Source: Haloferax sulfurifontis ATCC BAA-897 (GTDB lineage: Archaea; Halobacteriota; Halobacteria; Halobacteriales; Haloferacaceae). From it: a stretch of DNA of 64,000 nucleotides. A program made the position numbers and the translations under genes. The stretch lies in the NCBI RefSeq assembly GCF_000337835.1, contig NZ_AOLM01000027.1, positions 1 through 64,000 of the forward strand. Reading direction: 5' to 3'. Positions 22,018-64,000 of this stretch are shown here, piece by piece. The notes beneath the pieces are model-generated. The model did no database searches and was not told the DNA's origin. It saw nothing but the letters and a program-made list of their open reading frames with translations. Numbering within the stretch: position 1 is the stretch's first letter; each line of letters begins with the position of its first letter.

Positions 22018-22081
22018 CTCGGCGGTGCTTCGGCCGTCAGTGGCAGGTCGCCCCACGAACGCGACCGGTCGTGCGACTTCG

Positions 22082-22098
22082 TTTTAGCCCGTCCTAAA
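22082..22098. promoter_or_regulatory. Upstream DtxR-like half-conserved operator
   Basis: TTTTAGCCCGTCCTAAA has TTTAG/CTAAA arms in the same geometry as the strong site at 22119-22134. It lies just upstream of the TATA box, so a second repressor dimer could cover the promoter. It is weaker than the other copies. Confidence 0.5.
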
Positions 22099-22118
22099 CT
22101 TCGAAGCACCTATATCGC

Positions 22119-22134
22119 TTTAGGCGAGCCTAAT
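22119..22134. promoter_or_regulatory. DtxR/IdeR-like iron operator over the transcription start
   Basis: TTTAGGCGAGCCTAAT is a near-perfect palindrome matching the DtxR/IdeR/MntR consensus (TTAGGTnAGCCTAA). It falls between the TATA element CTATAT (22110-22115) and ATG 22139, where a metal-loaded repressor would block a leaderless transcript. Confidence 0.8.
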
Positions 22135-22138
22135 CCGT

Positions 22139-23380
22139 ATGTTGGACGACGACGGCGAGAACGCGAGGCCGACCCGGAGAGACTACCTGACGTACGGTGG
22201 GGCGCTTCTCGGCGGCGGGGTGCTCGCGGGATGCGCCGGCCAGTCGGGCGACGACGCGACGGCGACGACGACCGCGGCCGACGCGGCGACCGAAACCGAG
22301 ACAGGGGCCACCGAGACGGCGGCCGAGACAGCTGAATCGAGCTACGCGGCCGAGCTGTCGCCGGTCGGGACGGTCACGCTGGACGAGCCGCCGACGAACG
22401 TGTTCACCCACTTCCCGTGGTTCCCGGACATGGCGAGCGCGCTCGGGCGGGGCGACACCGTCAACGACCTCTGGTGGGACGGCACCGTCGCGGGCCTCGA
22501 CTACTTCACTGCCGACTTCGACGGCTTCGAAATCGAGTGGGCGGACGCGGCGGGCGAGTACGGCTTCACGAAAGAGCGGCTGTACGAACTCGACAGCGAC
22601 CTCCACCTCGTCGACCCCGCGTGGGTGTCCACGCAGGACAACTGGAGCCGAGCCGACATCGACGAGGTCGCGGACAACGTCGGCCCGTGGTTCGGCAACT
22701 ACTACAGCAACTTCAACGCCGCGCCCCCGGGGGAGTGGGCCGACGGCTACGAGTACTGCGACCTCTGGGAGCTGTTCGACCGCGTCGCGTCGCTGTACGG
22801 CGAGCGCGACCGCTACGAGGCGCTCCAGTCCGTCCACGACGACCTGCTCGGCACCGTCGAGGGCGGACTGCCACCGGAGTCCGAGCGTCCAACCGCCGCG
22901 TACCTCTCCATCTCGACGGACCTGTCGAGCATCTACCTGCTCCGCCTGAACGCGCCCGGCTACTGGAACTCTCACACCCGGCCGCTCGGCGCGGTCGACG
23001 CCTTCGGCGACGCGGAGTTCACGGGACCGTTCCAAGAGGTCGATATGGAGGCGCTGTTAGAGGCCGACCCCGACGTGATTCTCGCGTTATGGACCGTCAC
23101 GGAGACGTTCGACTTCGACGGGCTGAAACAGAACCTCCGAGACGACCCCGTCGGCCGCGAACTGGCGGCCGTCCAGAACGACCGCGTCTACCCGCAGGGG
23201 ACGCGGTGGCAGGGGCCGCTGATGAACCTGTTCCAACTGGAGATGACGGCCAAACAGCTCTATCCCGAGCGGTTCGGCGCGTGGCCGACCTACGAGGACG
23301 GCGACGACTACCCCGACTTCGGGACCGACGAGCGGTTGTTCGACCACGAGCGGGTCGAGGAGATCGTCACAGACGGCTAG
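22139..23380 (+). CDS. Iron(III)/siderophore-type ABC substrate-binding lipoprotein
   Basis: A 413-residue extracytoplasmic protein. It has an N-terminal RRDYLTYGG Tat-like motif, a hydrophobic core and a lipobox VLAGCAGQ, then a Thr/Ala-rich linker. The TroA/BtuF-like body shows TVTLDEPPTNVFTHFPWFPDMASALGRG, the second lobe with DPDVILALWTV and the terminal AKQLYPERF motif, consistent with periplasmic ferric-chelate or haem receptors. DtxR-like operators at its start support an iron role. No permease or ATPase is adjacent, so it may serve a transporter encoded elsewhere. Confidence 0.85.
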   Translation: MLDDDGENARPTRRDYLTYGGALLGGGVLAGCAGQSGDDATATTTAADAATETETGATETAAETAESSYAAELSPVGTVTLDEPPTNVFTHFPWFPDMASALGRGDTVNDLWWDGTVAGLDYFTADFDGFEIEWADAAGEYGFTKERLYELDSDLHLVDPAWVSTQDNWSRADIDEVADNVGPWFGNYYSNFNAAPPGEWADGYEYCDLWELFDRVASLYGERDRYEALQSVHDDLLGTVEGGLPPESERPTAAYLSISTDLSSIYLLRLNAPGYWNSHTRPLGAVDAFGDAEFTGPFQEVDMEALLEADPDVILALWTVTETFDFDGLKQNLRDDPVGRELAAVQNDRVYPQGTRWQGPLMNLFQLEMTAKQLYPERFGAWPTYEDGDDYPDFGTDERLFDHERVEEIVTDG

Positions 23381-23601: not shown

Positions 23602-25278
23602 TCAACGGTCAGCGGCGGCGTCCGGTCGGCTCAGTCGGATTCGGACTTGCGTGCCGGAGTCGGACGCTTCCACGCTCAGTGTCCCGTCCGAGCGAGAGAC
23701 GATCCAGTACACCAGCCACAGGCCGATGCCGGAGCCGTGTTCGAGGTCCGTCTCTTCGCCGGCTTCCAAGACGGCGAACTCAGACGGCGGGAGGCCCGGT
23801 CCGTTGTCCTCGACGATAATCGTCACTTCCGACGGGGACACATCGGTCGTGACGCGCACGGCGATCGGTTCGTCGCCGGAATGGTGAGACACGGCGTTCT
23901 CGATTAACTCGGCGAGTGCGAGGTCGAATCGTGGATGTGCGTCAACGACGACGTCATCGACGTCGAACGAGACGGATTTCAGAAATTCGGCCGGAACGTT
24001 TTGTCTCAGCTTGAGTAGATACTCGTTGAGCGAACGGCGGTCCGTCTCAGAATACGACAGCACGGTCTCGATTTTCCTCGCTTTGGCCGCTTGTTCGACG
24101 ACTTTCATCGCACGCGTATGTATGCGACCCGCCGACTGAGCGGTCTCACCACCCGTCGAGTCTCGGATGATGGCCGCAAAGCCCGCAATCACGTTGAGGT
24201 CGTTTCGAATGTTATGACGGAAGATACGCGACAGGACTTGTTTGAGGAGGTCCAATTCTTCCTCGCGCTCTTTGAGGGCCGTAATGTCGCTCAACACGAC
24301 GATTTTTCCGGTCACTCCCCGGCCATAGGAAATCGCCGACGTCTCAATCGAGAACGTTCGCGTTCCACCGTTTACCGCTAACTTGATGACGTCGGTGGTC
24401 TCCTCGTCCGAAAGCACCGAAGCGTCGCAGATGAACTCCTCGAGTTTGGTACCGATGAGGCGCCGTCCTGACAGTTGGTGTCCCGATTGGTTCGCATCAA
24501 CGATGTAGCCCGCAGAGTTGACCACGAAGATGGGGTCGGTGATCTCTTCGAACGTCTGCTCCCGAGCGACGGGAACGAACTTCAGTAACCCGTGTTCCCG
24601 AATCGAATACGCGAAAAAGAGCCCGGAACACGAGTACAGAACTGACGTGGGGTCGAAATAAATCGGGACGAGTCCCACGACTTTCACTACCGTCGAACCG
24701 ACGAGCATCGAAAACACGACTAAGAGATAGACGGTCTGTCGGCGTTGCGTGCCGCTCGTCCGGAGCAGTTCTCCGACGAACATACCGGCCGCCAGAAACA
24801 CGAGCAGGTAGCCGTAGACCTTCGTCACGAGGAACTTGAGCGGGCCATCGAAGATTGGAAAGTGTAAGATACCGTCCGCGGTCGCGTAGTATGCACTCGT
24901 AAACACCAGTTCGTACGGATTAACCCACGAGATGACAAACAGAAGCAGTATCGGGCTGAACAGGACGTAAACGACGGTCCGGGAGACGGTCTGTTTGAAG
25001 ACGAACTCGTAGGCGAGTAAGAAAAGCGTCACTGCGGCGGTCGGAATCATCACCCAGAAGAAGTTTGCAACCGCTAACGTGAGCTGTGGGTCCGGGATAA
25101 GTGTGAACGTCGCGAACAGCAACGACCAGAGACCGCCGGTGGCCATCGAGAGGATAAACCAGATGACGCCCGGTTTATCGCGTTCTTGCCAGAGGAGATG
25201 GCAGTTCACGACCGATGGAATCACCCCAAGGTACATCAGGACGACAGCGATTTCAGGGGTGAGCCATCGGTCAAGCAC
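23602..25278 (-). CDS. Sensor histidine kinase with 7TM N-terminal domain and PAS
   Basis: A 558-residue membrane kinase with a GTG start. About seven helices in residues 10-230 form the histidine-kinase 7TM domain common in haloarchaea. A PAS domain follows (FEEITDPIFVVNSAGYIVDANQSG), then the dimerisation H-box FRHNIRNDLNVI carrying the phosphorylated histidine. The ATPase domain has the N-box ELIENAVSHH, the G1 box VEDNGPGLP and G2 GSGIGLWLV. No response regulator or receiver gene is nearby, so it is an orphan. It converges with the iron-type lipoprotein gene but no functional link is shown. Confidence 0.9.
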   Translation of the reverse strand: MLDRWLTPEIAVVLMYLGVIPSVVNCHLLWQERDKPGVIWFILSMATGGLWSLLFATFTLIPDPQLTLAVANFFWVMIPTAAVTLFLLAYEFVFKQTVSRTVVYVLFSPILLLFVISWVNPYELVFTSAYYATADGILHFPIFDGPLKFLVTKVYGYLLVFLAAGMFVGELLRTSGTQRRQTVYLLVVFSMLVGSTVVKVVGLVPIYFDPTSVLYSCSGLFFAYSIREHGLLKFVPVAREQTFEEITDPIFVVNSAGYIVDANQSGHQLSGRRLIGTKLEEFICDASVLSDEETTDVIKLAVNGGTRTFSIETSAISYGRGVTGKIVVLSDITALKEREEELDLLKQVLSRIFRHNIRNDLNVIAGFAAIIRDSTGGETAQSAGRIHTRAMKVVEQAAKARKIETVLSYSETDRRSLNEYLLKLRQNVPAEFLKSVSFDVDDVVVDAHPRFDLALAELIENAVSHHSGDEPIAVRVTTDVSPSEVTIIVEDNGPGLPPSEFAVLEAGEETDLEHGSGIGLWLVYWIVSRSDGTLSVEASDSGTQVRIRLSRPDAAADR

Positions 25279-25632
25279 GTATTCTATACCAGCATTATCG
25301 AGCTAATTATTCTTTTGGGAGACCTGTAATATAATCCACAATTCATGCTGGAGCGCCCATCCAGTGACGCCAGTGTGGCGACAGGAACGGCGATTCTACC
25401 CCTTCTCGCTACGGGGAACGCCGGCATCCGCGCTCACGTCTCGAAGCACTCGCCCGGTCTCCCTGAGGTGGTAGTTGAGACTACACCGGGTTTAGCGGGG
25501 CTGTGATGCGTGGTTTCGACCGAATTGACGAGGGGAATCTGCTTCGGATTATCCTCGAAACGCGTGTTCTTGTTGAACTGGAAACTAATTCGGAGGATTT
25601 CCGAGACTCTGGATAGTGTCGCCACTCAGACA
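25279..25632. other. Intergenic sequence between the kinase and the IS element
   Basis: The left part holds the kinase promoter area. The remainder includes short open frames on both strands that resemble no family I know. Nothing further can be supported. Confidence 0.35.
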
Positions 25633-27326
25633 CCGCGCTAACACAGGTAGAACCCCCCACTACCCGATTCCCGTTTCCTTCTTCAACAACGTCAGTGTAT
25701 TGTCGGCTGTTACGATCGGCGAATGCTCGTACTCACCGGTCAACTCAACCTGCACGAGCAAATCGACCGCTCGCCAAATCGAGTACAAGAGACACGCGAA
25801 TGCGAAGTAGAAGAACCGCAGCCCGAAATCCTTCGACGTCGTCGTGGCCATGAATCGCTTGATCGACTTGTAGCCACTCTCGATTTCCCACCGGTAGCCG
25901 TACTCCGTGAGGTGCCCAGTCCCTCTATTCGTCATGAACACCGAGTACTGTCGATGGTCGTCGTGCTCAGCGTTCTCTTTGCGGCGGTAGATCAGCGTCG
26001 TCTCGTGCCACTCACTCTTCCCAAGATGGAGTTTACGATCGGTCTCATACCGGTCTTGATCGCGCTGGAGCAACCGCTTCGCCTGCTCTCGCTGGTCTGC
26101 ATCCGCTTGGGGACGACGTAGGAGAGCCCACGCTGGCTGATCATCTCCAGAACGTGCTGACTATCGAATTCCCGATCCATCAGGACGTTATCGACGTGGA
26201 CGAGCTCTTCAGCCGAATCGAGCAAGTCCTCGACGATCTCCTTGCGTGACTCGCCTTTTCGTACCGGGCGGGCATCGAGGACGAGTGGGACAGCGTTCCC
26301 GACCAGCTGGACTGTCGCCCACTGATAGGCGTACTCGTCAGTGTTCTCTTTCGTTCCGATGATCTCGTCCTCATGGCCTGTGCGGTCGCCGGTAAAGGGG
26401 TCGGCCTCGGTAATGTCGATAGCGACGATCCCTGCGCGGAAGAACTCCTCTGTCTCTGCGAGCTGGTTGATGAGCTGTCGGACCGCCTGTCGGTACATCT
26501 CGCGAATCTGCTCGATAGAGAGATTACGAATCTGGTCGCGATGACCGTGCCCGAGTGGTGTTCGATCACGCGTCGACTCGTGGATGAAGCTGCGAGCCCC
26601 CTCGTTGGCGGCCAAGTTCTCACGGAGTCCTAAGTAGGTCTGTAAGCCCCAGTAGGCGTTCTCGGGAATCTCACAGCCCTCGCCACGGTTGAGCGAGAAC
26701 GCGGGGAACACGACGTGACTGACGTGCTTGGTAATCGTCCCTGTCTTGTCGAGGATGGCCTGGTCGTCCGGGTCCGGTTCAGCGGCGTCGTGGCCTCGAG
26801 TCGGGAGGTTTCGGTCTGGTTCGCGTGGCACAGCGATATCCGCGTTTTCCGCTTTGATGAGGATCGTGCGAGCCGCTGTCCGGACCGTTTCCCGGAGATC
26901 TCGCGTGAAGCGTTTGTTCCAGGTCCGCCAGAGCGTCGATTGATCGGGAACCGTTCCCAACTCTAGACGTTCGCAGAGTGTGGTCCGGCTCTCAAGGTAC
27001 TCCAGGAGTTCTGTTTCGTGCTCCCACCCGTGGAGTTCTTTCAGCACGAACATGCGAAAGAGGGTATCCATCTCGTAGCGTGTCGAGTTTTCGTAGCAAT
27101 CGTGGGCCTCGAAGCGAAAGTAGGCCAGCGGAAGTTCGCAGACGAATTCTTCAATCGAGTCGTGGTCTGGGTGCGTAAACCAGACATTCGAGACGACTCG
27201 AACGTCCGATTCTAATCCGCCAAGCGAGGTACGATCATATAGCGGCGTCGAGTTATATATGGGCCACTCAATGTGCTGCCGGCGTGCGATCCGGCCAAAA
27301 ACACTACGCTGGGATTCACTTGTCCC
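25633..27326 (-). mobile_element. IS4-family insertion sequence (ISH8-like), boundaries approximate
   Basis: The element is defined by its transposase. Possible ends are the imperfect inverted repeats ACAGGTAGAACCCC near 25634 and ACAAGTGAATCCC (minus strand) near 27325, which share the pattern ACA-GT-A-CCC. No target duplication was identified, so the limits are tentative, and the transposase frame slightly overruns the right limit. It lies between a histidine kinase and a CDF transporter and interrupts no recognisable gene. Confidence 0.6.
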
Positions 27327-27332
27327 AGTCAC
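25660..27332 (-). pseudogene. IS4-family transposase, frameshifted
   Basis: The N-terminal two-thirds reads in one frame from about 27332 to 26100, with DDE residues in GIVAIDITEADP and VLMDREFDS. After VVPKRM the frame goes astray, and the family continuation ADQREQAKRLLQRDQDRYETD is found one frame over, running to 25660 with the Y-x2-R-x3-E-x6-K signature in YGYRWEIESGYKSIKRF. Restoring one G after the ATG at 26100-26102 would join the two. All catalytic motifs are present, so it is a recent single-base inactivation. The initiation codon is uncertain. Confidence 0.85.
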
Positions 27333-27413
27333 TACGAGATCGTGGCTGCGATATGGGAAGAGCCAATCTAACCGCCCAACAGAAGGACTGTAGTTTGCAG
27401 TATCGAGAACAGC

Positions 27414-28322
27414 TCATGCGGGCGAAGTTGCCGAATCATCAGCGTCTTTCCATTCGTCGAGTCCAGCGGGATCAAGATGGACGTGGACGTCTGAAACTGA
27501 TTCGACCTCACGGACACATTGGCGAAGATCTGATTCGAGATCGTGTGCCTCGACCACAGTTAGATCTTTGGCTACTTCAGCATGGAACTCGACCTCAACC
27601 ATGTGCCCGGAGTAGTACGCAACGAAATCGTGAATCCCGTGAACGGCGGAGTGTTCTCGAATCTGCTGTTTGATTTTTTCCTGTTCTGATTCGGGTGGTG
27701 CACGATCAGCAAGGTACTGAATATTCTCACGAGAGATGTCTACACCTTGGTGGATGACGAGCAGACTCACAATGCCGCCCGCAATCGGGTCAAAAATTGG
27801 GTAACCGACAGCCATACCCAGGACGCCCACAAGGGCTGCGCCTGTGGTATAGAGATCATTGAGGCTGTCAGCGGCAAGCGCTCGAAGACTTGGCAACTGG
27901 AGTTCTTGATTCTTGTATTGCGTATACCAGTAACAGAGATACATATCACCGAGTGCGAACAGGAGTCCGAGTACGAGCCAAATACTGTACTCGGCAGAGA
28001 CTCCAGTAAAAATCGAGTGACCTGCATCGTACAACAGTTTGAGTCCGAGAAGAACGAGGACGCCGCCAACGAAGAGCGCAGAGAGCGGTTCGAATCGATT
28101 GTGTCCATGTGGATGTGAGTCATCAGCATCGTCGAAGGCGGATCGGCCCCAGATCAAGACAACACCGCTTGCGAGAAGGTCAGCGACGGAGTGCGCTGCG
28201 TCAGCGGTGAGTGCGAGGCTTCCAGTGAGCAATCCGAGTGCGCCCTCGACACCGATTTTGAGGGCATTTAATAGAACATTGGCCCAAGAGACTTTGAGAA
28301 AGGCCACGCGTGAGTCTGCCAT
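27414..28322 (-). CDS. Cation diffusion facilitator (CDF) metal transporter
   Basis: A 302-residue membrane protein with six helices and a C-terminal cytoplasmic domain. ALTADAAHSVADLLASG carries the D-x3-H(x)D metal site of helix 2, the histidine-rich SHPHGHNRFEPLSALF follows, and LRALAADSLNDLYTTGAA is the matching site of helix 5. The C-terminal domain ends in VEFHAEVAKDLTVVEAHDLESDLR, typical of CDF regulatory domains. It exports divalent metals such as Zn, Mn or Fe; the specificity is not evident, though the D-D-D pattern differs from classical Zn sites. Confidence 0.92.
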   Translation of the reverse strand: MADSRVAFLKVSWANVLLNALKIGVEGALGLLTGSLALTADAAHSVADLLASGVVLIWGRSAFDDADDSHPHGHNRFEPLSALFVGGVLVLLGLKLLYDAGHSIFTGVSAEYSIWLVLGLLFALGDMYLCYWYTQYKNQELQLPSLRALAADSLNDLYTTGAALVGVLGMAVGYPIFDPIAGGIVSLLVIHQGVDISRENIQYLADRAPPESEQEKIKQQIREHSAVHGIHDFVAYYSGHMVEVEFHAEVAKDLTVVEAHDLESDLRQCVREVESVSDVHVHLDPAGLDEWKDADDSATSPA

Positions 28323-28634
28323 AGAATGATAATACTGCTACTTCCGCATAAGAGACCTCATTAGTCGCGTATAATCGAGTTTTTGATTCAATCTAAACTT
28401 TGCTCGGGGCACTGAGAATCATCAAGTAATCAAGAGGCCCCTCAGACGACTGTGCCTACATATGCATTGAGACAGGCGGTCTCAACTACTGCCCTGAGGA
28501 CTCCTGTAGACCGGTGACCAAACAAGTATAGTACGAGCGGCGAGATTGCTCCGAGAGATGAACGGTACGGACTGGTTCCCACGACGGCAGTCTCCGATCT
28601 GTCACCTCCGCTCTCGGGGAGGAGCATTACTGAG
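28323..28634. other. Divergent intergenic region between CDF and UbiA genes
   Basis: It contains the promoters of both flanking genes; AT-rich DNA at 28323-28400 suits the CDF gene. A short minus-strand frame (28442-28627) has no features of a real protein. Confidence 0.35.
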
Positions 28635-29435
28635 ATGAGGGTAGCCGACGCACGGTTCCTGTTTTTTCAGTTGAACATCTGGCTGTGTTTGCTCTCGGCC
28701 GCGATGGTCGGGGTCTCGGGGCTAGCGATGGGTGTCGACCCTCGCTCAATCGGGAGCGGGCTCCTGCTCGCGCCACTCCTGTTTTATTTCATATACGTCG
28801 AAGACCGACGCGGGGGGACGGCCGAAGACGAGATAAACCAACCGCACCGGACGAAGCTCGTCCGGCGGTACCAGCGGGGGCTGTTCGCGACGGAACTGCT
28901 CGCGTTAGTCGGCTACGAACTGGTGGTCTGCCTGCTGGTGTTTCAGGCGGGAACCGCGACTGCCAGCGACCTACTGTTCGCCCAGATTCCCCTCGTCGTA
29001 CTCGGAAGCTACGGGTGGCTGAAGCGCTATCCGACGCTCGATTCCATCGGCGTCGGGTTCACTTGGGCGTTCGTGGCCGTCTTTTCGGTCGTCGCGGCGA
29101 CACCCCTGCAGTATTCGCTCGACGGCGCGGCTGTCTTCTTCGGGTGGTTTCTGATTACCGCCGCCGGAGTCGAGTCCCGCAACATCCAGGACATCTCCGG
29201 AGACACACACGCGAATAAGACCACGCTCGCGGGCTACTTAGGACCCCGAACGGCGTCGGTGTTAGTTCGACTCCTGAAAGCGGGCGGCGTGGCCGTGTTC
29301 TGGGCCGTTTCCGGGCCGCTCGTCGCCGGCCTCGTCGTCTGCTACTTGCTTTCGCTCTCGGTGTTCCGCCATCTCACGCGGCTACACAGGCGGGGCCCGT
29401 CGTCTGAGACGAGTCAGAGCTCCGCCCGCGGGTGA
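28635..29435 (+). CDS. UbiA-family prenyltransferase-like membrane protein
   Basis: A 266-residue polytopic protein with about eight helices. The first aspartate motif of UbiA enzymes (NDxxDxxxDxxNxPxRP) appears as VEDRRGGTAEDEINQPHRTKL, with Asp residues kept but the leading Asn replaced. The second is NIQDISGDTHANKTTLAGYLG. Family members transfer prenyl chains to aromatic or lipid acceptors (quinones, archaeal ether lipids, C50 carotenoid precursors). The substrate here is not determinable. Confidence 0.8.
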   Translation: MRVADARFLFFQLNIWLCLLSAAMVGVSGLAMGVDPRSIGSGLLLAPLLFYFIYVEDRRGGTAEDEINQPHRTKLVRRYQRGLFATELLALVGYELVVCLLVFQAGTATASDLLFAQIPLVVLGSYGWLKRYPTLDSIGVGFTWAFVAVFSVVAATPLQYSLDGAAVFFGWFLITAAGVESRNIQDISGDTHANKTTLAGYLGPRTASVLVRLLKAGGVAVFWAVSGPLVAGLVVCYLLSLSVFRHLTRLHRRGPSSETSQSSARG

Positions 29436-43431: not shown

Positions 43432-45894
43432 TTAGTTCTCGCGGCGGAGTGCGAGAAGGGCCGCGCCGACGAGTGCGACGAGAGCGACTGCGATACCGAA
43501 GCCGGGCGTGTTGGAGGACGTGGTGGTCGTCTCCTCAGTCGGCTCTTCGGTGGTCTCAGTCGGCTCAGCGGTCGTGGTCGTTTCCGTGGGTTCGGACGTC
43601 GTCGTGGTCGTTTCCGTGGGTTCGGACGTCGTGGTGTCCTCACGCTCGGAGACGACTTCGACGTTCACGGTGTCCGTGTTGTCGCCGTCGTCGGCTTCCA
43701 CGGTGTACGTACCCGTCTCGAAGTCGGTGGTGTCAATTTCGACCATCCACTGGCCGTCGTTGTTCCACTCGTCAGTGTCTTCGAGTGCGACGGACGTACC
43801 GTCTTCATTCGTCACTTCGATGCTGATGGTGTTGTCGTCCGGCTTGAGGTTCGTCGAGCCAGCGATGACCATCGTTTCACCGGTCGCGACCGGGTTGATG
43901 CCAGCCGCTTCAGCGGCGTCCGGGTAGATCGAGTCGATGGACGTCGAGGACTCGGCCAGACGGAACGTCTCGGTGACGATCAGGTCGTCGCTCGCCGTCT
44001 CGTCAACCGTTTCGGAGGCGATGAGCTCGTTGACCTGCTCACCGTTGTTGTTGTTGCTGTCGAGCGTGTCGAGGTAGGTCTGCAGGTCGTCGAGGTCTGC
44101 GCCGGAGCTCGGGCCACCCGGGAGGGAGCCGTCACCGACGGCGCCGTCGCGACCGACCGAGAGGATGTGGGCGGTGACCTGGCCCTGCGTGAGGCCGACG
44201 GTGATGTCGTCCTCTTCGAAGGTACCGTCGCTGTCAACGCTCACGGACTGGTATTCGACGTTACCGCGCTCGTCGACGAAGATGACGAGGACGGAGTCGG
44301 CACCGCTGGCGGTACCGTTAACGTCAACCGTTCCGGATTGGACAGGTGCGACCTGACCGTTGATCGTCGTGAACTGACCCGTAAGGGCCTGGTCGACCAC
44401 GCGGAGCGAATTACTGCTGCTCACACCGCTGGTGAATTCGGACGTCGTAAGCGAGTCGTCGACGGTACCGTCGCCGCCGACGTCAGCGTCGGACGCGTCG
44501 ATGACACCGATGCGGTAGGTACCCGTCAGCGACAGGATGCTGCTACCGTCGCCGGGGAGGTTCGAGAGCGCAACGTCTTCTTCTTCGAACGTGTCGTCAG
44601 AGTCGACGTTGATTTCGTTGTCGCCGCCGATTTCGAGGAGCTGCCAGTCGCCATCGTCGCGGACGTAGATTGCGACGCTGTCGGAGCTGGTAGCCGTACC
44701 GTTAATGTCGACTTCCGAGCCAACGACGTACTGACCGGTCGGGCTCGAAAGTGTCGTACCGCCTTCTTCGACGGTGAGCGTGATGTCGTTCGTCGGGTCC
44801 GCGTCGACCGCTTCGGTCGCGTTCACACCAACGTCGTACACTTCGATGTCGACGTCGCTGTCGTCGAGGTACTGCGTTTCGATGCCGCCAACGGCGCTCG
44901 CACCGTCGATTTCGACGATTGCGTACGCGATGTCAGCGTCACTGACATCCAGGGTCGTGGATGCGGAGGAGTTGTTCACAGCGCTGCTGTTCGCAATGCC
45001 GACTTCCGAGGTATCACCGATGTTACGGAAGATTGCCTTGGCCTGCTGCGTCGTGATGTCGGACTGAGCGTCCGAAAGGTCAATGGCAACAACGTGCTCG
45101 TTGCCGTCGATGCCGTTCGTGACCGTGTACTGAACGTCAGTACCCTGGGTCACGGACTCGCTGTCGAGTTCGATGCCGACTTCGTCCTGCGACGAGATCG
45201 TGAGGGTCATCGTCTCGGAGGCCTCACCGAAGTCGAGGTCCTCAGCGCCTTCGAGGGTGATCGTGTACTCGCCAGCGTCCTGATCGGACATGTCGAGCTG
45301 AGCACCGTTCTGCGTGTCGACCGTGCTGTCGTTGATGACGTCGCTGGAGCTGGTCAGGACCTCGTTGGTGATGTCCGTTCCGCTCGGGTCTTCGACGGTC
45401 ACCGTGACCTTCTCGGCCGACTCGTAGTTGTAGTTAGCGTTGACGTAGAGTTCGTCAGCGTCATCGGAGCTGATAGCGGAGCCGGTGACGTCGCCACCGG
45501 ACGCCGTCAGGATTTCGCTGTCAGTGATGCGCGGTGCCAGCAGCGTGACGTTGGCCGAACCACTGTTGCCGTCAGCGGAGTACGTACCAAGCGGCTGGTC
45601 GTCCGAACTCTGCGGGATGGGCGAGGTAAGGTCGAGCGAGATACCTTCCGCGTTGCCCGAGACACCCGTCAGAAGCGGGTTCGAAGCGCCGAGACCGGCG
45701 TCAGTGTCGATTTCCTCACCGAGGAAGACGCGGTCTCCGGATGCAATTGTCTTGTTGAACGTTTCGTTGTCAGCGTCGAGATCTCCACGCTCCGCGGCGG
45801 CACTTCCCGTAAACGCGATGGCCCCCGCGAAGACGGAGGTTACCATCAGCGCGGCGAGAAGTATCGCACGCGTTTGATTTTTGATCGTTGTCAT
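43432..45894 (-). CDS. csg: S-layer glycoprotein
   Basis: An 820-residue major cell-wall protein. ATG 45894 begins the signal peptide ([20 protein letters not shown]), cleaved before ERGDLDADN. Long blocks match my memory of Haloferax volcanii Csg (827 residues), such as [11 protein letters not shown] and [19 protein letters not shown], with divergence elsewhere. The first NKT sequon matches glycosylated Asn13, and SANVTLLAP matches Asn83; DNET adds a sequon four residues before the first. The tail is a Thr/Glu-rich TETTTT region with repeats, then [26 protein letters not shown], the PGF-CTERM signal for ArtA processing and lipid anchoring. Confidence 0.97.
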
Positions 45895-56746: not shown

Positions 56747-57023
56747 TCCCGCCGCTCAGGGCGCTTCGAGCCGCGAACCGAAGCGTCTGGCGACGGGGTG
56801 CACTCGCGCGACCGAAACCCAGCCCCATGTGCGAAGTCTGTCAACAACCGCTCCCGAGCTGAAGCCGCCGAGACGACAGCACACGAGCGGTAGCCCGCCT
56901 AGAAACACTTTTCAGCATCAGATTAGATAGGAAACATGATGACTGGCTTGAACGATTCTCCCCGTCGCGGTACCCGAACGGTGCCTGCGGTGCGAACGAC
57001 TGACGTGAGCTGTCCCCACACCG

Positions 57024-57185
57024 ATGAGTGAGCCGTCGACGTTCGTCGAACAGACCAAAGTCCACCTCCACAAAGCGCTCGAAACGGACGACCCCGACGA
57101 GAAGAACTTCCACCTCCGGAATGCGCTTCAGCTCTGTGCGTGGGACGACCTGACCGACCGAGCCGAACAGAACGACGCCGACTGA
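57024..57185 (+). CDS. 53-residue acidic protein
   Basis: An open frame from ATG 57024 to TGA 57183-57185. The product (MSEPSTFVEQTKVHLHKALE then DDPDEKNFHLRNALQLCAWDD) is acidic, helical in pattern and has the composition of a haloarchaeal protein, in contrast to the neighbouring non-coding DNA. I do not recognise it. The reading frame and codon bias are the evidence. Confidence 0.5.
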   Translation: MSEPSTFVEQTKVHLHKALETDDPDEKNFHLRNALQLCAWDDLTDRAEQNDAD

Positions 57186-57987
57186 CGTTCTTCTCGCCGA
57201 CTATCGGTTCCGCATGCTCAAGGACGCGCGTGGAGACGGGGAGCCGAGCCACCGTCGATTCGTCTCGCGTCGCGGAACCAGTGGACTCGATAGATCAGAG
57301 TATAGTATTCGAATATTGTATGTTTTGAATATAGTATTTTTTCCGATACGAGTTATGTCTCGGTCGGGGTCGTCTAATTCATATATGTGATTGTATTTTT
57401 TACAATAGTAAATCAGATACGCCGATACTTTTTCCTATATCACACACATACTTCCAGAGTTGTTAGTTATGTGGCCAAGAGCGTTTAGCTTGAGATTTCA
57501 ATTTTGCCAGCTGAGAAGGATATATGCTTGGCTGATTGTTCGTGCTTCATGTGTTTTCACCCACAGGAATGATCGTCCGCTGGTTCGCCGGTCACCCTCG
57601 TATCCGCGTCGGAGATGTCGTCGTCCATCTCCCCCGAGGTCGTCTCCACGGGCCTTCGGCCGGCGTCACAGCAGGCCGCGCGACAGGCGACTCCGTCACG
57701 AATGGTTCGAAAGTCGGTGCGTGCCGTCCAGGTCCGGCTATCTCGACAGTTCGGTAGCGAATCACGATCGGTCGTGGCACCGTGGCCGTCCCACACGACC
57801 ACTGAAAGAGACTGTCCGTTCTATGTGACAGTCCCTCAATCTATCTTTAATAGCGTGTGCCTCGAACGAGTAGGTAAGCTCCCGCAGGCGGCTCACATAC
57901 AGTCGACGGGTGTCGAACCCGATGCCGCGTTTCGGCTCGTCATCATCCACTGATTACCACCCACCTGTCCGGGCGCAGGAGATTCCA
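57186..57987. other. Long region without a supported gene, left half AT-rich
   Basis: The stretch 57290-57500 is very AT-rich, with a TATTCGAATA palindrome and low-complexity runs. Beyond 57560 several short open frames occur on both strands, but none has coding character I can defend. It could hold a decayed gene, regulatory DNA for the pilin gene or an unannotated RNA. Confidence 0.4.
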
Positions 57988-58457
57988 ATGCAACAACCCT
58001 CTTCAACGACGATTCCGCCGTCTCACCGGTTATCGGTGTGATTCTGATGGTCGCGATTACCGTCATCCTCGCGGCCGTCATCGGCACGTTCGTCCTCGGT
58101 CTCGGCGACCAAGTCAGCGAAACCGCCCCACAAGCGAATTTCAGTTTCGACTTCGCAAACGACGTGTCTGACAGCGACGATGACGCCCAACTCGTCATCA
58201 CGCACGAATCCGGGACCAGCATCTCGGCGGACCGCCTCAACGTGACCATCGACGGAACCGGCGTCGCCGCCGATGATACCGATGATTACTCGTTCAGTAG
58301 CGAGTTCCCGGACGACGTCGAGGCCGGTAGTTCTGCGACCGTCGTGAAGGGCACGACCGGAGACGACGTCTGGGAAGGCGAGTCCATCCGCGTCGTCTGG
58401 ACCTCGGAATCCGGTTCGAGCTCGGCCACCCTGCACTCACAGACCGCACCGCAGTAA
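57988..58457 (+). pseudogene. PilA-type type IV pilin, frameshifted near its start
   Basis: The downstream frame encodes a haloarchaeal pilin: LFNDDSAVSPVIGVILMVAI, the hydrophobic H-domain with the prepilin cleavage zone before SPVIG, then ITVILAAVIGTFVLGLG and QVSETAPQA. It has no ATG, GTG or TTG before the first in-frame stop. The natural start ATG at 57988 reads MQQPSSTTIPPS and hits a stop. Adding one C to the run at 57997-57999 would give MQQPLFNDDSAVSPVIG. It is either a true single-base deletion (possibly phase-variable) or a sequence error. The body (139 residues from 58038) is otherwise intact. Confidence 0.75.
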
Positions 58458-58768: not shown

Positions 58769-60013
58769 ATGAGTACGAAACCCCAATCAGAATCCCCCGT
58801 AGACGCTCCACAACAGGGAGCGACGAACGGGCAGTCCGCCTCGGACATCCGCCTGAGCGGTGACGAGCTACTCCTGTCCGCAGACAGCGACATTACGCCC
58901 ACCCTCTCGGTCGTGATGCCTACCCTCAACGAAGAAGGCGGCATCGCCCAGTGTATCGAGTGGGTCAAAGCCGCCCTCGAAGAACTGCAACTCTACGGCG
59001 AGGTCGTCGTCGCCGATAGCTCGACCGACCGCACGCCCGAGATTGCGGCAGAGAATGGTGCCATCGTCATCGAACCCGACGGCAAGGGCTACGGCTACGC
59101 CTACCTGTACGCCTTCGAGCGCGTCCGCGGTGACTACATCGCCATGGGCGACGCCGACTGCACCTACGACTTCGAAGAGCTTCCCAAGCTGTTGAATCTC
59201 GTTCGGTCGGGCGAGGCCGACATGGCCATGGGCTCGCGGCTCGAGGGTGAGATTCTGCCGGGGTCGATGCCGCCCCTGCACGAACACGTCGGGAATCCAC
59301 TGTTGACGAAGTTCTTGAACGTGTTCTACGGCGCTGGCGTGAGTGACGCACACAGTGGGATGCGCGTGTTCAGTCGCGAGGCCTGGGAGACCATGGAGTG
59401 TTCGTCGACGGGCATGGAGTTCGCTTCGGAGATGATCATGGAGGCCGGCGCGAAAGATCTGGAGATTGCCGAGAAGCCGATTACGTACCATCCCCGCGAG
59501 GGCGAGGCGAACTTAGAGAGCTTCCCCGACGGCTGGCGACACGTGCGGTTCATGCTCGTGAATGCGCCCGGCTACCTGTTTTCGGCTCCCGGCTTCGGGT
59601 TGTCTGTGGTCGGGGTGTTGGCGCTCGTGCTGGCCTGGAGTGGCTTGGAAATCGGTGGGGCGCAGTTCGGCATCCACACCGGAATTGGTGGCGGGCTGTT
59701 GACCCTCGCTGGCTTCCAGTTGATGCTGTTCGGTGCGTTTGCGACGGTGTCCTCCGATCCGGTTCGCGGTGCGAGCGACCCGTTTACGACCTGGTTCACG
59801 AAACGGATTTCGCTTGAGAGAGGGGCGACGATTGGGTCTGTCGTGTTCCTTGCCGGGTTGGCCTACGGTGGGTTCCTGGCCTTCACGTGGGTGACGAGTG
59901 GCTTTAGTGCGCTGCCGATTGCGGTTGCCGACGTCGTTGCGACCGTGGCTGTGGTTGGTGGATTGCAGATGGTGTTTGGGTCGTTCCTGTTGGGGTCAGT
60001 TATCCGTGAATAG
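58769..60013 (+). CDS. GT2 glycosyltransferase with C-terminal membrane domain (dolichyl-phosphate sugar synthase type)
   Basis: A 414-residue protein. A family-2 catalytic domain (about residues 47-260) begins SVVMPTLNEEGGI and contains the nucleotide-sugar/metal DxD-type site GDADCTYDF, with HSGMRVFSREAWE and the acceptor region GMEFASEMIMEA. Four hydrophobic segments follow (LSVVGVLALVLAW onwards), anchoring it to the membrane. Relatives charge dolichyl phosphate with glucose, mannose or other sugars for N-glycosylation. It adjoins a decayed integrase and a surface-polysaccharide island. The exact sugar is unknown. Confidence 0.87.
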   Translation: MSTKPQSESPVDAPQQGATNGQSASDIRLSGDELLLSADSDITPTLSVVMPTLNEEGGIAQCIEWVKAALEELQLYGEVVVADSSTDRTPEIAAENGAIVIEPDGKGYGYAYLYAFERVRGDYIAMGDADCTYDFEELPKLLNLVRSGEADMAMGSRLEGEILPGSMPPLHEHVGNPLLTKFLNVFYGAGVSDAHSGMRVFSREAWETMECSSTGMEFASEMIMEAGAKDLEIAEKPITYHPREGEANLESFPDGWRHVRFMLVNAPGYLFSAPGFGLSVVGVLALVLAWSGLEIGGAQFGIHTGIGGGLLTLAGFQLMLFGAFATVSSDPVRGASDPFTTWFTKRISLERGATIGSVVFLAGLAYGGFLAFTWVTSGFSALPIAVADVVATVAVVGGLQMVFGSFLLGSVIRE

Positions 60014-60259
60014 TCTGCTCGAGGCTCCCGAGTCAACTGAATCGGACCTCGGTTCAATTCACACCGATGCAGTCCGTCACTTTTCGGCCGTGTAGTGAGA
60101 GAGAATACCATGCTCGTAGATAATACGATTCTACAGACAGCAAAAAGTTGACACCGTCATCGATTAGAAGAATTGACGAGCAATAATCTGGTTCTTGGAT
60201 CCGAGCGAAGACAATGAAAACACTGACCAAGAACTAACCCCTTGAGGTCAGACTTGTCG

Positions 60260-60880
60260 CCAAACCTGTCGAAGAACGCCCAACGAACGCCAGCTCATCG
60301 ACTTCCGAGCAGAGCGAGAATAGCGTCTGGACTGGCCCCTCCATTTCAGCAAGGCTCCCGAGAAACCCGAGGGGTATGTCGTCACCACGGTCAAGAACTG
60401 GGAGTACCGCATGGACAAATTCTATCGTTGGGGATTGACTAAGAGGAGGGCTACACGTCGGTGACTACATGGTCTACCTCGCTCGCCAGCCGAGATCACA
60501 CGTTAACAATGATACGTGTCGCAAGGCAGTGCAGATGCTCTACAATGGCGCGCCACCAGCGCGGCGGTGAGCAACGGGAATCCGAATTCTCGTTCGCCCA
60601 GCCGAACCAATCGAAGACGCCACGCGATTATCTCACTCGTGAGGTGCGACAGAAGACTCGGGTGCGCTGGAATACGAGAGTGTCCCATCAAGGCAGAACG
60701 TCTATAGGCAAGAACGTGACGCTGGCGAGCTTGCTTGGCCAACGGGTCGGGATACCGAAATCTCAAACCACTGAGGATGGCTGGGTGTGAGCCCATAGCT
60801 GGAATATTCCGTCATTCGTGTTCGCAGTGCACAGATCCAACTACGTCATCGAGACCCAACTCAACGATGCGATACGATCA
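60260..60880 (+). pseudogene. Decayed haloarchaeal tyrosine integrase
   Basis: Segments of an integrase read in different frames with stops between them: SPNLSKNAQR and ERQLIDFRAERE, KPEGYVVTTVKNWEYRMDKFYRW (core-binding region), DYMVYLARQPRSHVNNDTCRKAVQML, RGGEQRESEFSFAQPNQSK, PRDYLTREVRQKTR, ALEYESVPSRQNVYRQERDA, LGQRVGIPKSQTTED, SWNIPSFVF. These match the order of XerC/D-like haloarchaeal integrases. The catalytic RHRHY region is missing, cut where the IS5 relic begins. Confidence 0.75.
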
Positions 60881-60884
60881 AACG

Positions 60885-61262
60885 GGCCGTGTTGAAGCGC
60901 AATACTGCGTCGGAATTTGCTATTTGACGAAGTGCTTGAATGTCATAAACGATACACACCAGGACGATTTCACTGAACCCATAGACTAGGAACGCGCTCG
61001 CACGGCGAAGTCGAACAAGCGCTTGCCTGCCAAGTTCACAGTTTCAGTCATTGATCGCTGACAGTAGCGCAGTTCATCGATTCTGGCGCTGTGGAAGTGG
61101 TCGTACGATGCGAAAATCTTATGTTTGATCAGTGATCAAATACTCATCCCACGCTTGTCGTAGCTTTTGTCAGAAGCTAGTGACCACAGATCGTCCGGGC
61201 ATCGTTCGTAAAATGTGGCGTCAATAGCGGCGTGTTCGGACTCGTCCGTCAGAAGAAACAAC
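60885..61262 (-). pseudogene. IS5-family transposase relic
   Basis: On the minus strand, FLLTDESEHAAIDATFYER (first DDE aspartate region) is joined by a deletion to DDLWSLASDKSYDKRGMSI, a stop, then SLIKHKIFASYDHFHSARIDELRYCQRSMTETVN, LFDFAVRARS and SEIVLVCIVYDI. This is the order of haloarchaeal IS5-type transposases with internal deletion and stops. It truncates the integrase relic at its left side. Confidence 0.75.
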
Positions 61263-61263
61263 A

Positions 61264-63123
61264 CTACCTACATTGTACTATCCTTTGATGACCAGTTGTA
61301 TATATTTTAGAACTGAAGTCCTCTCCTACTGTGAACGATGAAAATATCACACCACGAGGATAAATGATGCTTCCGCGCTTGTTTAGTTCTTGTTGATCCC
61401 AGAGAATGGGTTCGGAGCAGATTTCTTTTTCATCATGTATTAAAATTGGACTCGTTGTCTCATCATTATATAACATCCTTGCTGCGTATCCTGATCTCAA
61501 GTAGTCGTAGCTCCCATCATCCACAACTACTCTTTGTGTGTGAAATCTTGCCCATTGCAGACTATGGTGTTTACTTTCTGTGAAATAGTTGGTAAACGTA
61601 CCAGTACTTGCTATTGGGTTGTCCCTTGTATATGTGTCATTAGATAATACTAACACTCCGCTAGAAACGATCAGCAGGGCTACAAAAATTTTGCCAAGTC
61701 TTTGGTGTGATACGGTTCTCCATATTCTCACTAATCCAAACGATGCTGTAATAATCACAAAAGGGATCGTCATTTTGGTGAATCTGTATAACTCCAACGC
61801 AGCGAATACACTTTTTAATAGCCTTATAGGTCCTGGAAAATAGAAAAGGCCAAGAGGGAGAGTGCCTATGATATACCAAGTTCTATTCTTTGATTCTGTA
61901 TTTTCCAGCGCGATAATAACCGCAACGGCAAAAGCGATCGCAATCAAAGTGTTGTCAAATAAATTTATAGAAAGTGATATGGGTGTTTGAAGTACTAAAT
62001 TGCCGCCGTACGAACTGGGACTAAAGTCTGTCAGCTTTGATAGAGTGCTTAGAACATATGGAACAAGGCGGGCGTTGATGAATAAAATAATATATGGTAT
62101 TGCCAATAATGCAGTAACGAAATAAATGGGCACTTGTCTTAGACTACTCAGAACACCCTTATCCTTTTGATCACCGGAATTTATGATTATCACCAACCAA
62201 ACTAAAACTATCAAGAACCATATTTGTCCGATTTTATGCCAATATGTGACTGGAAGAAGTAGTACCGCAAATAGGACCAACATATTCCAGGACGTATTGT
62301 CAACATCTCCGACCCAGGCGGCGAACAGGCCAAGTGGTGTGAGAGTAATGAACAACAGTGATGTCCGAGGGATTGAGTATGACCCAATATAAAGCGCCCA
62401 AAAAGAAAAACAAATCAGTACACCTGGGACCGCTCTATTATTTTTACTAACCATCCGAACGTTCTTAGACAAATATGTCATCAGCCATGGTGTAACGGAT
62501 AGGAGACCCCCACAAAGTACAAATATTCCTTCTCTGGCATCAATCCCCAAGAACGTTGAAGTAACAGCAACCGCGGAGAAAAATGCAGGGAATTGACCGT
62601 ATCCTTCTCCAGGAATCAGTCGATGGTATTCAGTAACGATCTCAGCACTTTGGACCATCAGAGCAGTATCTCCACTTCCAATATATAATGCGCTGGTTAG
62701 TGTGGTAGAAAAATGGAAGGTTAATAACCCTGCTGACGAGAGTATCAATGGGAAGACGGTGTCATCATAATCCAGTGCATAAAGTGCATTGGCAGTAAAT
62801 GAAACCGCAAGAAGCACGAAATGATATCTGGGACGGACAGGTTGAAATGCTGAAGGAACTGCCGCTGCAAGAGCAAAAATCGATGTGGCTATTAGTAATT
62901 TTCGTGAAACTAACTTTGAATCACGGATAGATGAACTAGACGAATTATTAGTTGAGAAGTGATACCAAATAGGCATGAAAACAAATACAGGCGCCATATA
63001 CAAGCCCAAGATAGCATACTGGGTCTGATCGATGAATACTAATATCGGATAGATAAGTACGCCACAGACGGAGAAGACGTATATTAATATTCTAACGCGA
63101 GATATCTTGTTTAGCATATTCAC
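61264..63123 (-). CDS. Polytopic membrane protein, glycosyltransferase-C/polymerase-like
   Basis: A 619-residue protein with about twelve hydrophobic helices over residues 10-500, then a polar C-terminal domain of about 120 residues facing outside (RFHTQRVVVDDGSYDYLRSGYAARML). The gene is AT-rich and uses A/T-ending codons, unlike the genes to its left. Topology and position beside a sulfatase-like gene and a glycosyltransferase suggest a Wzy-like polymerase or GT-C transferase of surface glycan synthesis. No diagnostic motif is certain. The codon use marks horizontal acquisition. Confidence 0.6.
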   Translation of the reverse strand: MNMLNKISRVRILIYVFSVCGVLIYPILVFIDQTQYAILGLYMAPVFVFMPIWYHFSTNNSSSSSIRDSKLVSRKLLIATSIFALAAAVPSAFQPVRPRYHFVLLAVSFTANALYALDYDDTVFPLILSSAGLLTFHFSTTLTSALYIGSGDTALMVQSAEIVTEYHRLIPGEGYGQFPAFFSAVAVTSTFLGIDAREGIFVLCGGLLSVTPWLMTYLSKNVRMVSKNNRAVPGVLICFSFWALYIGSYSIPRTSLLFITLTPLGLFAAWVGDVDNTSWNMLVLFAVLLLPVTYWHKIGQIWFLIVLVWLVIIINSGDQKDKGVLSSLRQVPIYFVTALLAIPYIILFINARLVPYVLSTLSKLTDFSPSSYGGNLVLQTPISLSINLFDNTLIAIAFAVAVIIALENTESKNRTWYIIGTLPLGLFYFPGPIRLLKSVFAALELYRFTKMTIPFVIITASFGLVRIWRTVSHQRLGKIFVALLIVSSGVLVLSNDTYTRDNPIASTGTFTNYFTESKHHSLQWARFHTQRVVVDDGSYDYLRSGYAARMLYNDETTSPILIHDEKEICSEPILWDQQELNKRGSIIYPRGVIFSSFTVGEDFSSKIYTTGHQRIVQCR

Positions 63124-63178: not shown

Positions 63179-64000
63179 TTACATATAACCCAAGTGTTCT
63201 AGGTGGTCTCTTAGTTCTTCATCATCCAAATCAACACCAGCAGCGGACGTTTTTTCACTAGTCACGCTATCGAATAAGGATGACAGCTCCTTAGCAGTAT
63301 CTTTGTTGGTATCTAAGCACATTCTACCATTCTTAATACTCTCGCTTTGGTCCGTTGGCAGCAGTAGCTCCCCGTGGTTCCTCCCTGTAAGCCCCTTTAA
63401 TTGTGTGGCACGGTGTATTGCCCATTTGTAATCCTTCGAGCGGACCATACCCACAGTAACAGGGTCACCTGCCATTGAAAATGTATATTCTTCTGAGTGT
63501 GGGTCGGTCATGTCAATTGGATCTCCTCTCATCATATTCGGTACCTTCCCACCAATCAAGTCAATTGCAGTTGGAGCTATGTTAAGAGCCGTTTGTTGCT
63601 TAGTGATCGTAGTGGTTTCGAGACTTGGATGATGGAAAATACAGGGTACATGAATAACTTCATTCCACATCTCATGAGGATGGCCGAACAACCCTTGTTC
63701 ACCAAACATTTCTCCATGATCTCCAACGATAATTGTCAACGTGTCCTCTGGAAGTTCAGTATGAAATTCCTTGATTTTAGAATCCAAGTGTGTGCAGGAA
63801 AGATCGTAGAGATCTTTAACTGCACCTATTGGGTCTCCAATACCCATCTTTTCACCACGTTGGGTAATCCCTTCTTTTGTTGATCCGTCGATTTCCAGGG
63901 TTAATCTCTGTGCGTCATGTGGAGAAATGTCGTCCGGAAGGTCAGTCTTTGGTGGCACATATGGGTGATGAACGTCCATGTAATGATGGTGTAAAAAGAA
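63179..64000 (-). CDS. Sulfatase/alkaline-phosphatase-superfamily protein (C-terminal part)
   Basis: The gene runs off the right edge, with 273 C-terminal residues visible. LHHHYMDVHHPYVPP, TLTIIVGDHGEMFGEQGLFGHPHEMWNEVIHVPCIFHHP (metal-binding DHGE and the GHPHE/HVP motifs) and APTAIDLIGG are typical of sulfatases and related phosphoglycerol or phosphoethanolamine transferases. The nucleophile region (C/SxPSR) lies outside the window. It is AT-rich like its neighbour, 55 bases away and probably in one operon. A role in modifying surface glycans is likely. Confidence 0.82.
   Translation of the reverse strand, partial: FFLHHHYMDVHHPYVPPKTDLPDDISPHDAQRLTLEIDGSTKEGITQRGEKMGIGDPIGAVKDLYDLSCTHLDSKIKEFHTELPEDTLTIIVGDHGEMFGEQGLFGHPHEMWNEVIHVPCIFHHPSLETTTITKQQTALNIAPTAIDLIGGKVPNMMRGDPIDMTDPHSEEYTFSMAGDPVTVGMVRSKDYKWAIHRATQLKGLTGRNHGELLLPTDQSESIKNGRMCLDTNKDTAKELSSLFDSVTSEKTSAAGVDLDDEELRDHLEHLGYM

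Follow-up and report, generated by a model that had tools for sequence, protein, structure and literature searches.

The region from 60260 to 61262 very probably lies at the left border of the agl6/pilA2 "alternative glycosylation" locus, which is linked to csg and is represented here by the allele of the present strain. In this locus a cassette of low-GC glycan genes is located between conserved flanks. Comparison of strains, a conspecific one among them, shows replacement of the entire cassette or of nearly all of it. Coordinates refer to the window, that is, the entire 64-kb stretch analysed, which is the beginning of a 309-kb Haloferax contig; positions prefixed by C27 are numbered on the whole contig. 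Fifteen Haloferax genomes were compared (G000 to G014), G000 being the genome under study and G001 a genome listed under the same species. For ORF calling a simple GC3 rule was applied.

The window contains the S-layer glycoprotein gene csg (43438..45750, minus strand; TIGR04216, 1065.7 bits, over the cut-off), and the low-GC glycan genes are indeed close to csg, as had been supposed from the sequence. Genes over the TIGR04216 cut-off were found in three of the 15 genomes; csg of H. volcanii is HVO_2072. The block bearing csg (approximately 23400-56900) is absent from G008, where the counterparts of 22057-23370 and 56896-57198 are only about 8 kb apart. There is a second GC dip in the window at 24000-29000 (0.52-0.60), and the segment 25469-28492 has no counterpart between matching flanks in G001.

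The left flank contains a pilin gene beside the island (57988..58457, plus strand; Pilin_N, PF07790, E 4.5e-18), assigned as PilA2 by position, and a GT2 glycosyltransferase gene (58769..60013, plus strand; PF00535, E 6.2e-26), which is the last conserved gene to the left of the variable block. The latter is taken to be agl6 because the pilin gene is its neighbour and because the locus agrees with the published description. Assignment of this gene as AglJ was rejected (159 versus 325 bits, under the NCBIfam cut-off). Relatives of the agl6-type gene with 87-94% identity occur in eight of the 15 genomes, the present one included, and the DNA similarity of the region to these relatives stops at 59997-60000. 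agl6 is absent from G001, and thus the left edge of the variable block is not fixed among genomes. Compared with G001 and G009, the pilin gene has a 4-base deletion directly after the start codon, the in-frame remainder being 58038-58457. The deletion (57988-58010) causes a frameshift at codon 3, as a result of which the signal peptide would be lost; it is either a true loss or an assembly error.

Positions 20255-58152 match the DNA of G001, with gaps, and the left breakpoint falls inside the pilin gene, near 58170: the identity is 88-98% up to approximately 58120, drops to 74% over the following 50-base bin, and is 36-68% thereafter. Between 58.2 and 73.0 kb there is no DNA counterpart in the G001 stretch, and the region 105.1-132.7 kb of G001 carries different glycan genes. 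The matching restarts at 73.0 kb in rearranged pieces, among them a block at 75292-77569 with 91.7% identity, and becomes continuous from 113067 (95% identity). The long matches flanking the replaced region are 91-96% identical at the DNA level. The right edge of the cassette is not sharp, the region 77-113 kb being a mosaic. An Orc1/Cdc6 gene is located to the right of the cassette (C27:81587-82945). The region C27:77000-112000 has a GC content of about 55%, contains genes for TnpB, Fic, Orc1/Cdc6 and AAA ATPase, and is partly common to, and reshuffled among, G001, G008 and G009.

The conserved right block, C27:75293-77569, is present as a long match in nine of the 15 genomes. In seven genomes a single contig carries both flanks, namely in G000, G001 (by its pilin), G003, G006, G008, G009 and G014. 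In G013 the flanks are on separate contigs; only the left flank was found in G011 and only the right one in G012; the five genomes with neither flank found (G002, G004, G005, G007, G010) were not placed. The seven cassettes between the flanks are 15.3-27.4 kb long and have GC content of 0.46-0.53. The present cassette has at most 6% of its DNA in common with any other, that of the conspecific G001 included, and no pair of cassettes shares more than 26%, the value for the most similar pair, G009 and G003. The interval to the right of the GT2 gene thus contains different glycan genes at the same place in seven Haloferax genomes, and conserved synteny with normal composition is not what was found. 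The suggestion of the sequence-only reading that this position is a hotspot of surface-glycan replacement therefore stands.

The cassette starts, from 61264 rightwards, with a gene encoding a multi-pass membrane protein of 619 aa (61264..63123, minus strand), followed by a sulfatase-fold protein of the alkaline phosphatase superfamily (63179..64000, minus strand; PF00884, E 4.2e-23), a GT4 glycosyltransferase, a flippase of the Wzx/MATE type (Polysacc_synt/MatE), another sulfatase-fold protein, another GT4 and a sugar epimerase. The first sulfatase-fold gene continues beyond the end of the window, its whole length being C27:63179-64546 (455 aa). The first six genes have GC content of 0.40-0.43 and GC3 of 0.35-0.40, and the epimerase gene has GC content of 0.54. 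For comparison, the 36 ORFs called in window positions 1-60013 have a median GC3 of 0.83 and a minimum of 0.51. Both the sulfatase fold and the drop of GC content with changed codon use had been noticed from the sequence, and both are borne out. The cassette of G003 encodes a LAGLIDADG endonuclease (PF03161), and similar ORFs occur in G006 and G014; none was noticed in the scanned part of the ORFs called in the present cassette.

The space between the GT2 gene and the membrane protein gene contains relics of an integrase and a transposase. The first (60282..60826, plus strand) is what is left of a tyrosine integrase, namely its N-terminal half in decayed form. In tblastn with the annotated 367-aa integrase of Natrinema thermotolerans it consists of two collinear pieces, residues 19-68 at 60282-60431 (48% identity) and residues 71-209 at 60437-60826 (28% identity), and is interrupted by in-frame stops and by changes of frame. 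The higher-scoring piece reaches 55.1 bits, whereas 100 shuffled versions of this DNA did not exceed 23.9. A decayed integrase in several frames had been proposed at about 60260-60880; the relic is there, but its right end is near 60826, not 60880. The catalytic half, residues 210-367, is absent, and thus there is no intact integrase with a catalytic domain. A separate search with one fragment of the relic recovered the same integrase (one record, E 3e-8), and two further fragments produced no match. Ten places of the same genome were compared as possible intact sources of the relic; the matches were at chance level and no convincing parent was found. The segment 60059-60214 is weakly similar to another integrase of this genome (35%, E 0.002 in a tiny search) and is possibly a further integrase remnant to the left of the main relic.

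The predicted IS5-family neighbour of the integrase is also present as a truncated and internally deleted transposase relic (60936..61252, minus strand). Residues 105-121, 179-253 and 258-271 of the 276-aa transposase of Halorubrum ezzemoulense align to 61252-60936, residues 122-178 being missing, and the best piece scores 85.1 bits, compared to at most 23.5 in 100 shuffles. The relic extends to about 10 bases from the stop codon of the neighbouring gene. The region of approximately 60866-61198 is matched by 35 plasmid records, many with annotated IS5 transposases, at 69-78% DNA identity. Another IS5 relic occurs where the low-GC genes end on the right (approximately C27:72313-72602); 167 bases of it are 94.6% identical to a segment from Haloferax prahovense.

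These relics could mean that the cassette arrived in an integrative element or plasmid, that the decayed integrase was its own, and that the IS5 copies at both ends helped its movement. The location of the integrase relic at the left edge, the same orientation of the IS5 relics at the two low-GC ends, the Orc1/Cdc6 gene to the right and the low GC content are all compatible with such an origin. However, the integrase relic is unique to this genome among the 15: it is absent from the same edge in the 14 others, and the cassettes of other strains occupy the same place without it. When the DNA of 60014-61262 was compared with these 14 genomes, only the IS5 part produced matches, in two genomes, none of them at this locus. 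The IS5 relics of the two ends share only 65% identity over 222 bases, and the integrase lacks its catalytic half. The edges, where att-like repeats or tRNA genes might have been expected, have neither: no repeat between the two cassette edges exceeds 13 bases, there are no tRNA genes in the 64-kb window, and the sole tRNA gene in C27:58001-118000, that of tRNA-Met (97594-97668), lies in a strain-shared stretch far from the edges. Thus arrival in an integrative element is improbable, and the suggestion of the sequence-only reading that the relics are connected with the acquisition of the island is not supported. They are probably debris of older insertions into a tolerant site, bystanders and not the present vehicle, and an earlier role of insertion sequences in the history of the cassette is conceivable, given the second IS5 relic of the same orientation.

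It is very improbable that the low-GC genes form a long-established cluster, fast-evolving and only foreign-looking, that was never replaced: all seven cassettes have low GC, which is thus a property of the locus, not of one donor, but the conspecific G001, with its 91-96% identical flanks, has non-homologous DNA and other genes at this site, and since divergence alone would not alter gene order and content, this explanation is refuted for the pair G000/G001.

For a recombining cassette, homologous recombination in the shared flanks seems to be the simplest route of exchange, as there is no intact integrase, no tRNA gene at the edges and no repeat longer than 13 bases, and the cassettes elsewhere are free of the relic. 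The exchange would occur in the pilin/agl6 region on the left and in C27:75293-77569 on the right. Here recombination is what we infer, and the breakpoint at the conserved pilin N-terminus could also mirror selection on that segment alone. The predicted cassette enzymes would build a lipid-linked glycan, the predicted flippase would export it, and a predicted membrane transferase would deliver it to the S-layer or the pilin. Viruses or mating may then select among the cassettes.

A possible component of this pathway is the membrane protein encoded at 61264-63123. It has no match in Pfam, NCBIfam or PDB, and thus its initial description as polymerase-like finds no support in any of them. Assignment as a polymerase (Wzy) was also rejected for its relatives, as the 19 family members produced no useful match (one was at chance level), and sequence and profile searches of PDB were empty. 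In a class-wide search at E <= 0.001 the protein matched in nine of 391 genomes, its own included, and in none of the other 14 Haloferax genomes. Iterated local searches linked it to proteins from the cassettes of G001 and G003 and to proteins encoded near agl6-like genes in other haloarchaea. In the alignment of the 19 members (A2), positions D152, Y175, H296 and R447 are nearly invariant. The A2 profile matches cassette proteins outside the alignment in G008, G009, G006 and G014 at 99.1, 96.6, 96.3 and 92.5%, respectively, compared to 8.9% for the GT87 protein of the G008 cassette. Thus a relative of the membrane protein is encoded in all seven cassettes.

Profile comparisons place this unnamed family at a distance from STT3/AglB. 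The profile of AglB was made from 19 of 20 AglB loci, with reading frames chosen by the WWDYG or WWDNG motif. In hhalign, A2 matches it with probability 80.7% over 116 columns, at the GNDPWYH loop, which corresponds to the catalytic-loop region of AglB/STT3; the matching columns surround the first conserved aspartate that follows the N-terminal helices. The decoys score 0.6% (MmpL), 0.3% (flippases), 0.6% (reversed AglB) and 0.3% (reversed A2), and 20 column shuffles score at most 0.4%. Without the subgroup of the present protein the probability is 65.8%. Single proteins yield 0.1-10.5%, so that the match is visible with the family profile only and the signal is remote. The E-values of these comparisons refer to a single target each. 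The membrane protein differs from STT3/AglB in having only these 116 columns aligned; neither it nor any of the 19 family members matches PF02516 (STT3), and its sequence does not contain WWDYG, the AglB/STT3 motif. The AlphaFold2 model from 10 sequences was too poor to use (mean pLDDT 44), and the result of Foldseek with it, nothing at E <= 0.001, is hence meaningless. The present genome has one STT3-family gene, on a different contig.

The family may be considered a candidate for the missing AglB-independent oligosaccharyltransferase. The available parts of two publications state that the Agl15 (low-salt) pathway has a transferase that is AglB-independent and unidentified (PMC3871713, PMC8241124), and the literature search yielded no paper settling such a role for this family. 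Alternatively, the protein might act extracellularly as a dolichol-phosphate-sugar transferase, or it might be a polymerase. A broader proposal, at present rather doubtful, is that every exchangeable cassette has its own divergent STT3-like transferase, fitted to its glycan and swapped together with it, and that the family includes the AglB-independent oligosaccharyltransferase of the Agl15 pathway. If the family is the missing enzyme, the question stated in 2013 and 2021 (PMC3871713, PMC8241124) becomes testable.

A protein comparable with the membrane protein by description is HVO_2052 (arCOG00563) from the second N-glycosylation neighbourhood of H. volcanii. The available part of a 2015 comparative study gives it as distantly related to PMT/STT3, with function unknown (PMC5898192). 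The two proteins, compared by description only, share the same kind of cluster and a distant relation to STT3. At the level of the locus, glycosyltransferases and S-layer genes are also found in surface-glycan genomic islands of Haloquadratum walsbyi, a member of another genus, as cited in Shalev et al. 2018 (PMC5867893), and the accessible text of a genome comparison involving H. gibbonsii LR2-5 describes strongly differing glycosylation genes (PMC7921747).

The known system most similar to the present one is the "alternative" glycosylation cluster, which in H. volcanii corresponds to agl5-agl15, spanning HVO_2046-HVO_2061 (PMC3871713). According to the available text of Shalev et al. 2018 (PMC5867893), such clusters were found by agl6, adjoin pilA2, are highly variable between isolates, have GC content of 52% and often contain an Orc1/Cdc6 gene; free-standing LAGLIDADG endonucleases occur in most isolates, and two isolates without agl6 retain the pilin, like G001 here. 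The present locus has the same GT2 and pilin neighbours, glycosylation and flippase genes beside them, strain-specific content (seven of the 15 genomes), very low GC and an Orc1/Cdc6 gene nearby. It is distinguished by the integrase and IS5 relics at the left edge and the frameshifted pilin gene, and among the genes called it lacks the sugar-nucleotide genes that adjoin agl6 in G009, G003 and G006. What was found is thus a new allele of an already published locus, the hotspot itself having been published in 2018 (PMC5867893). The locus acts like a serotype locus, with close relatives swapping the whole sugar-coat cassette at one site near the S-layer gene, and this matters for virus resistance and mating. 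To the swapping already known in Haloferax, the present analysis contributes two conspecific genomes whose breakpoints are defined, and a previously undescribed family of membrane proteins common to the cassettes.
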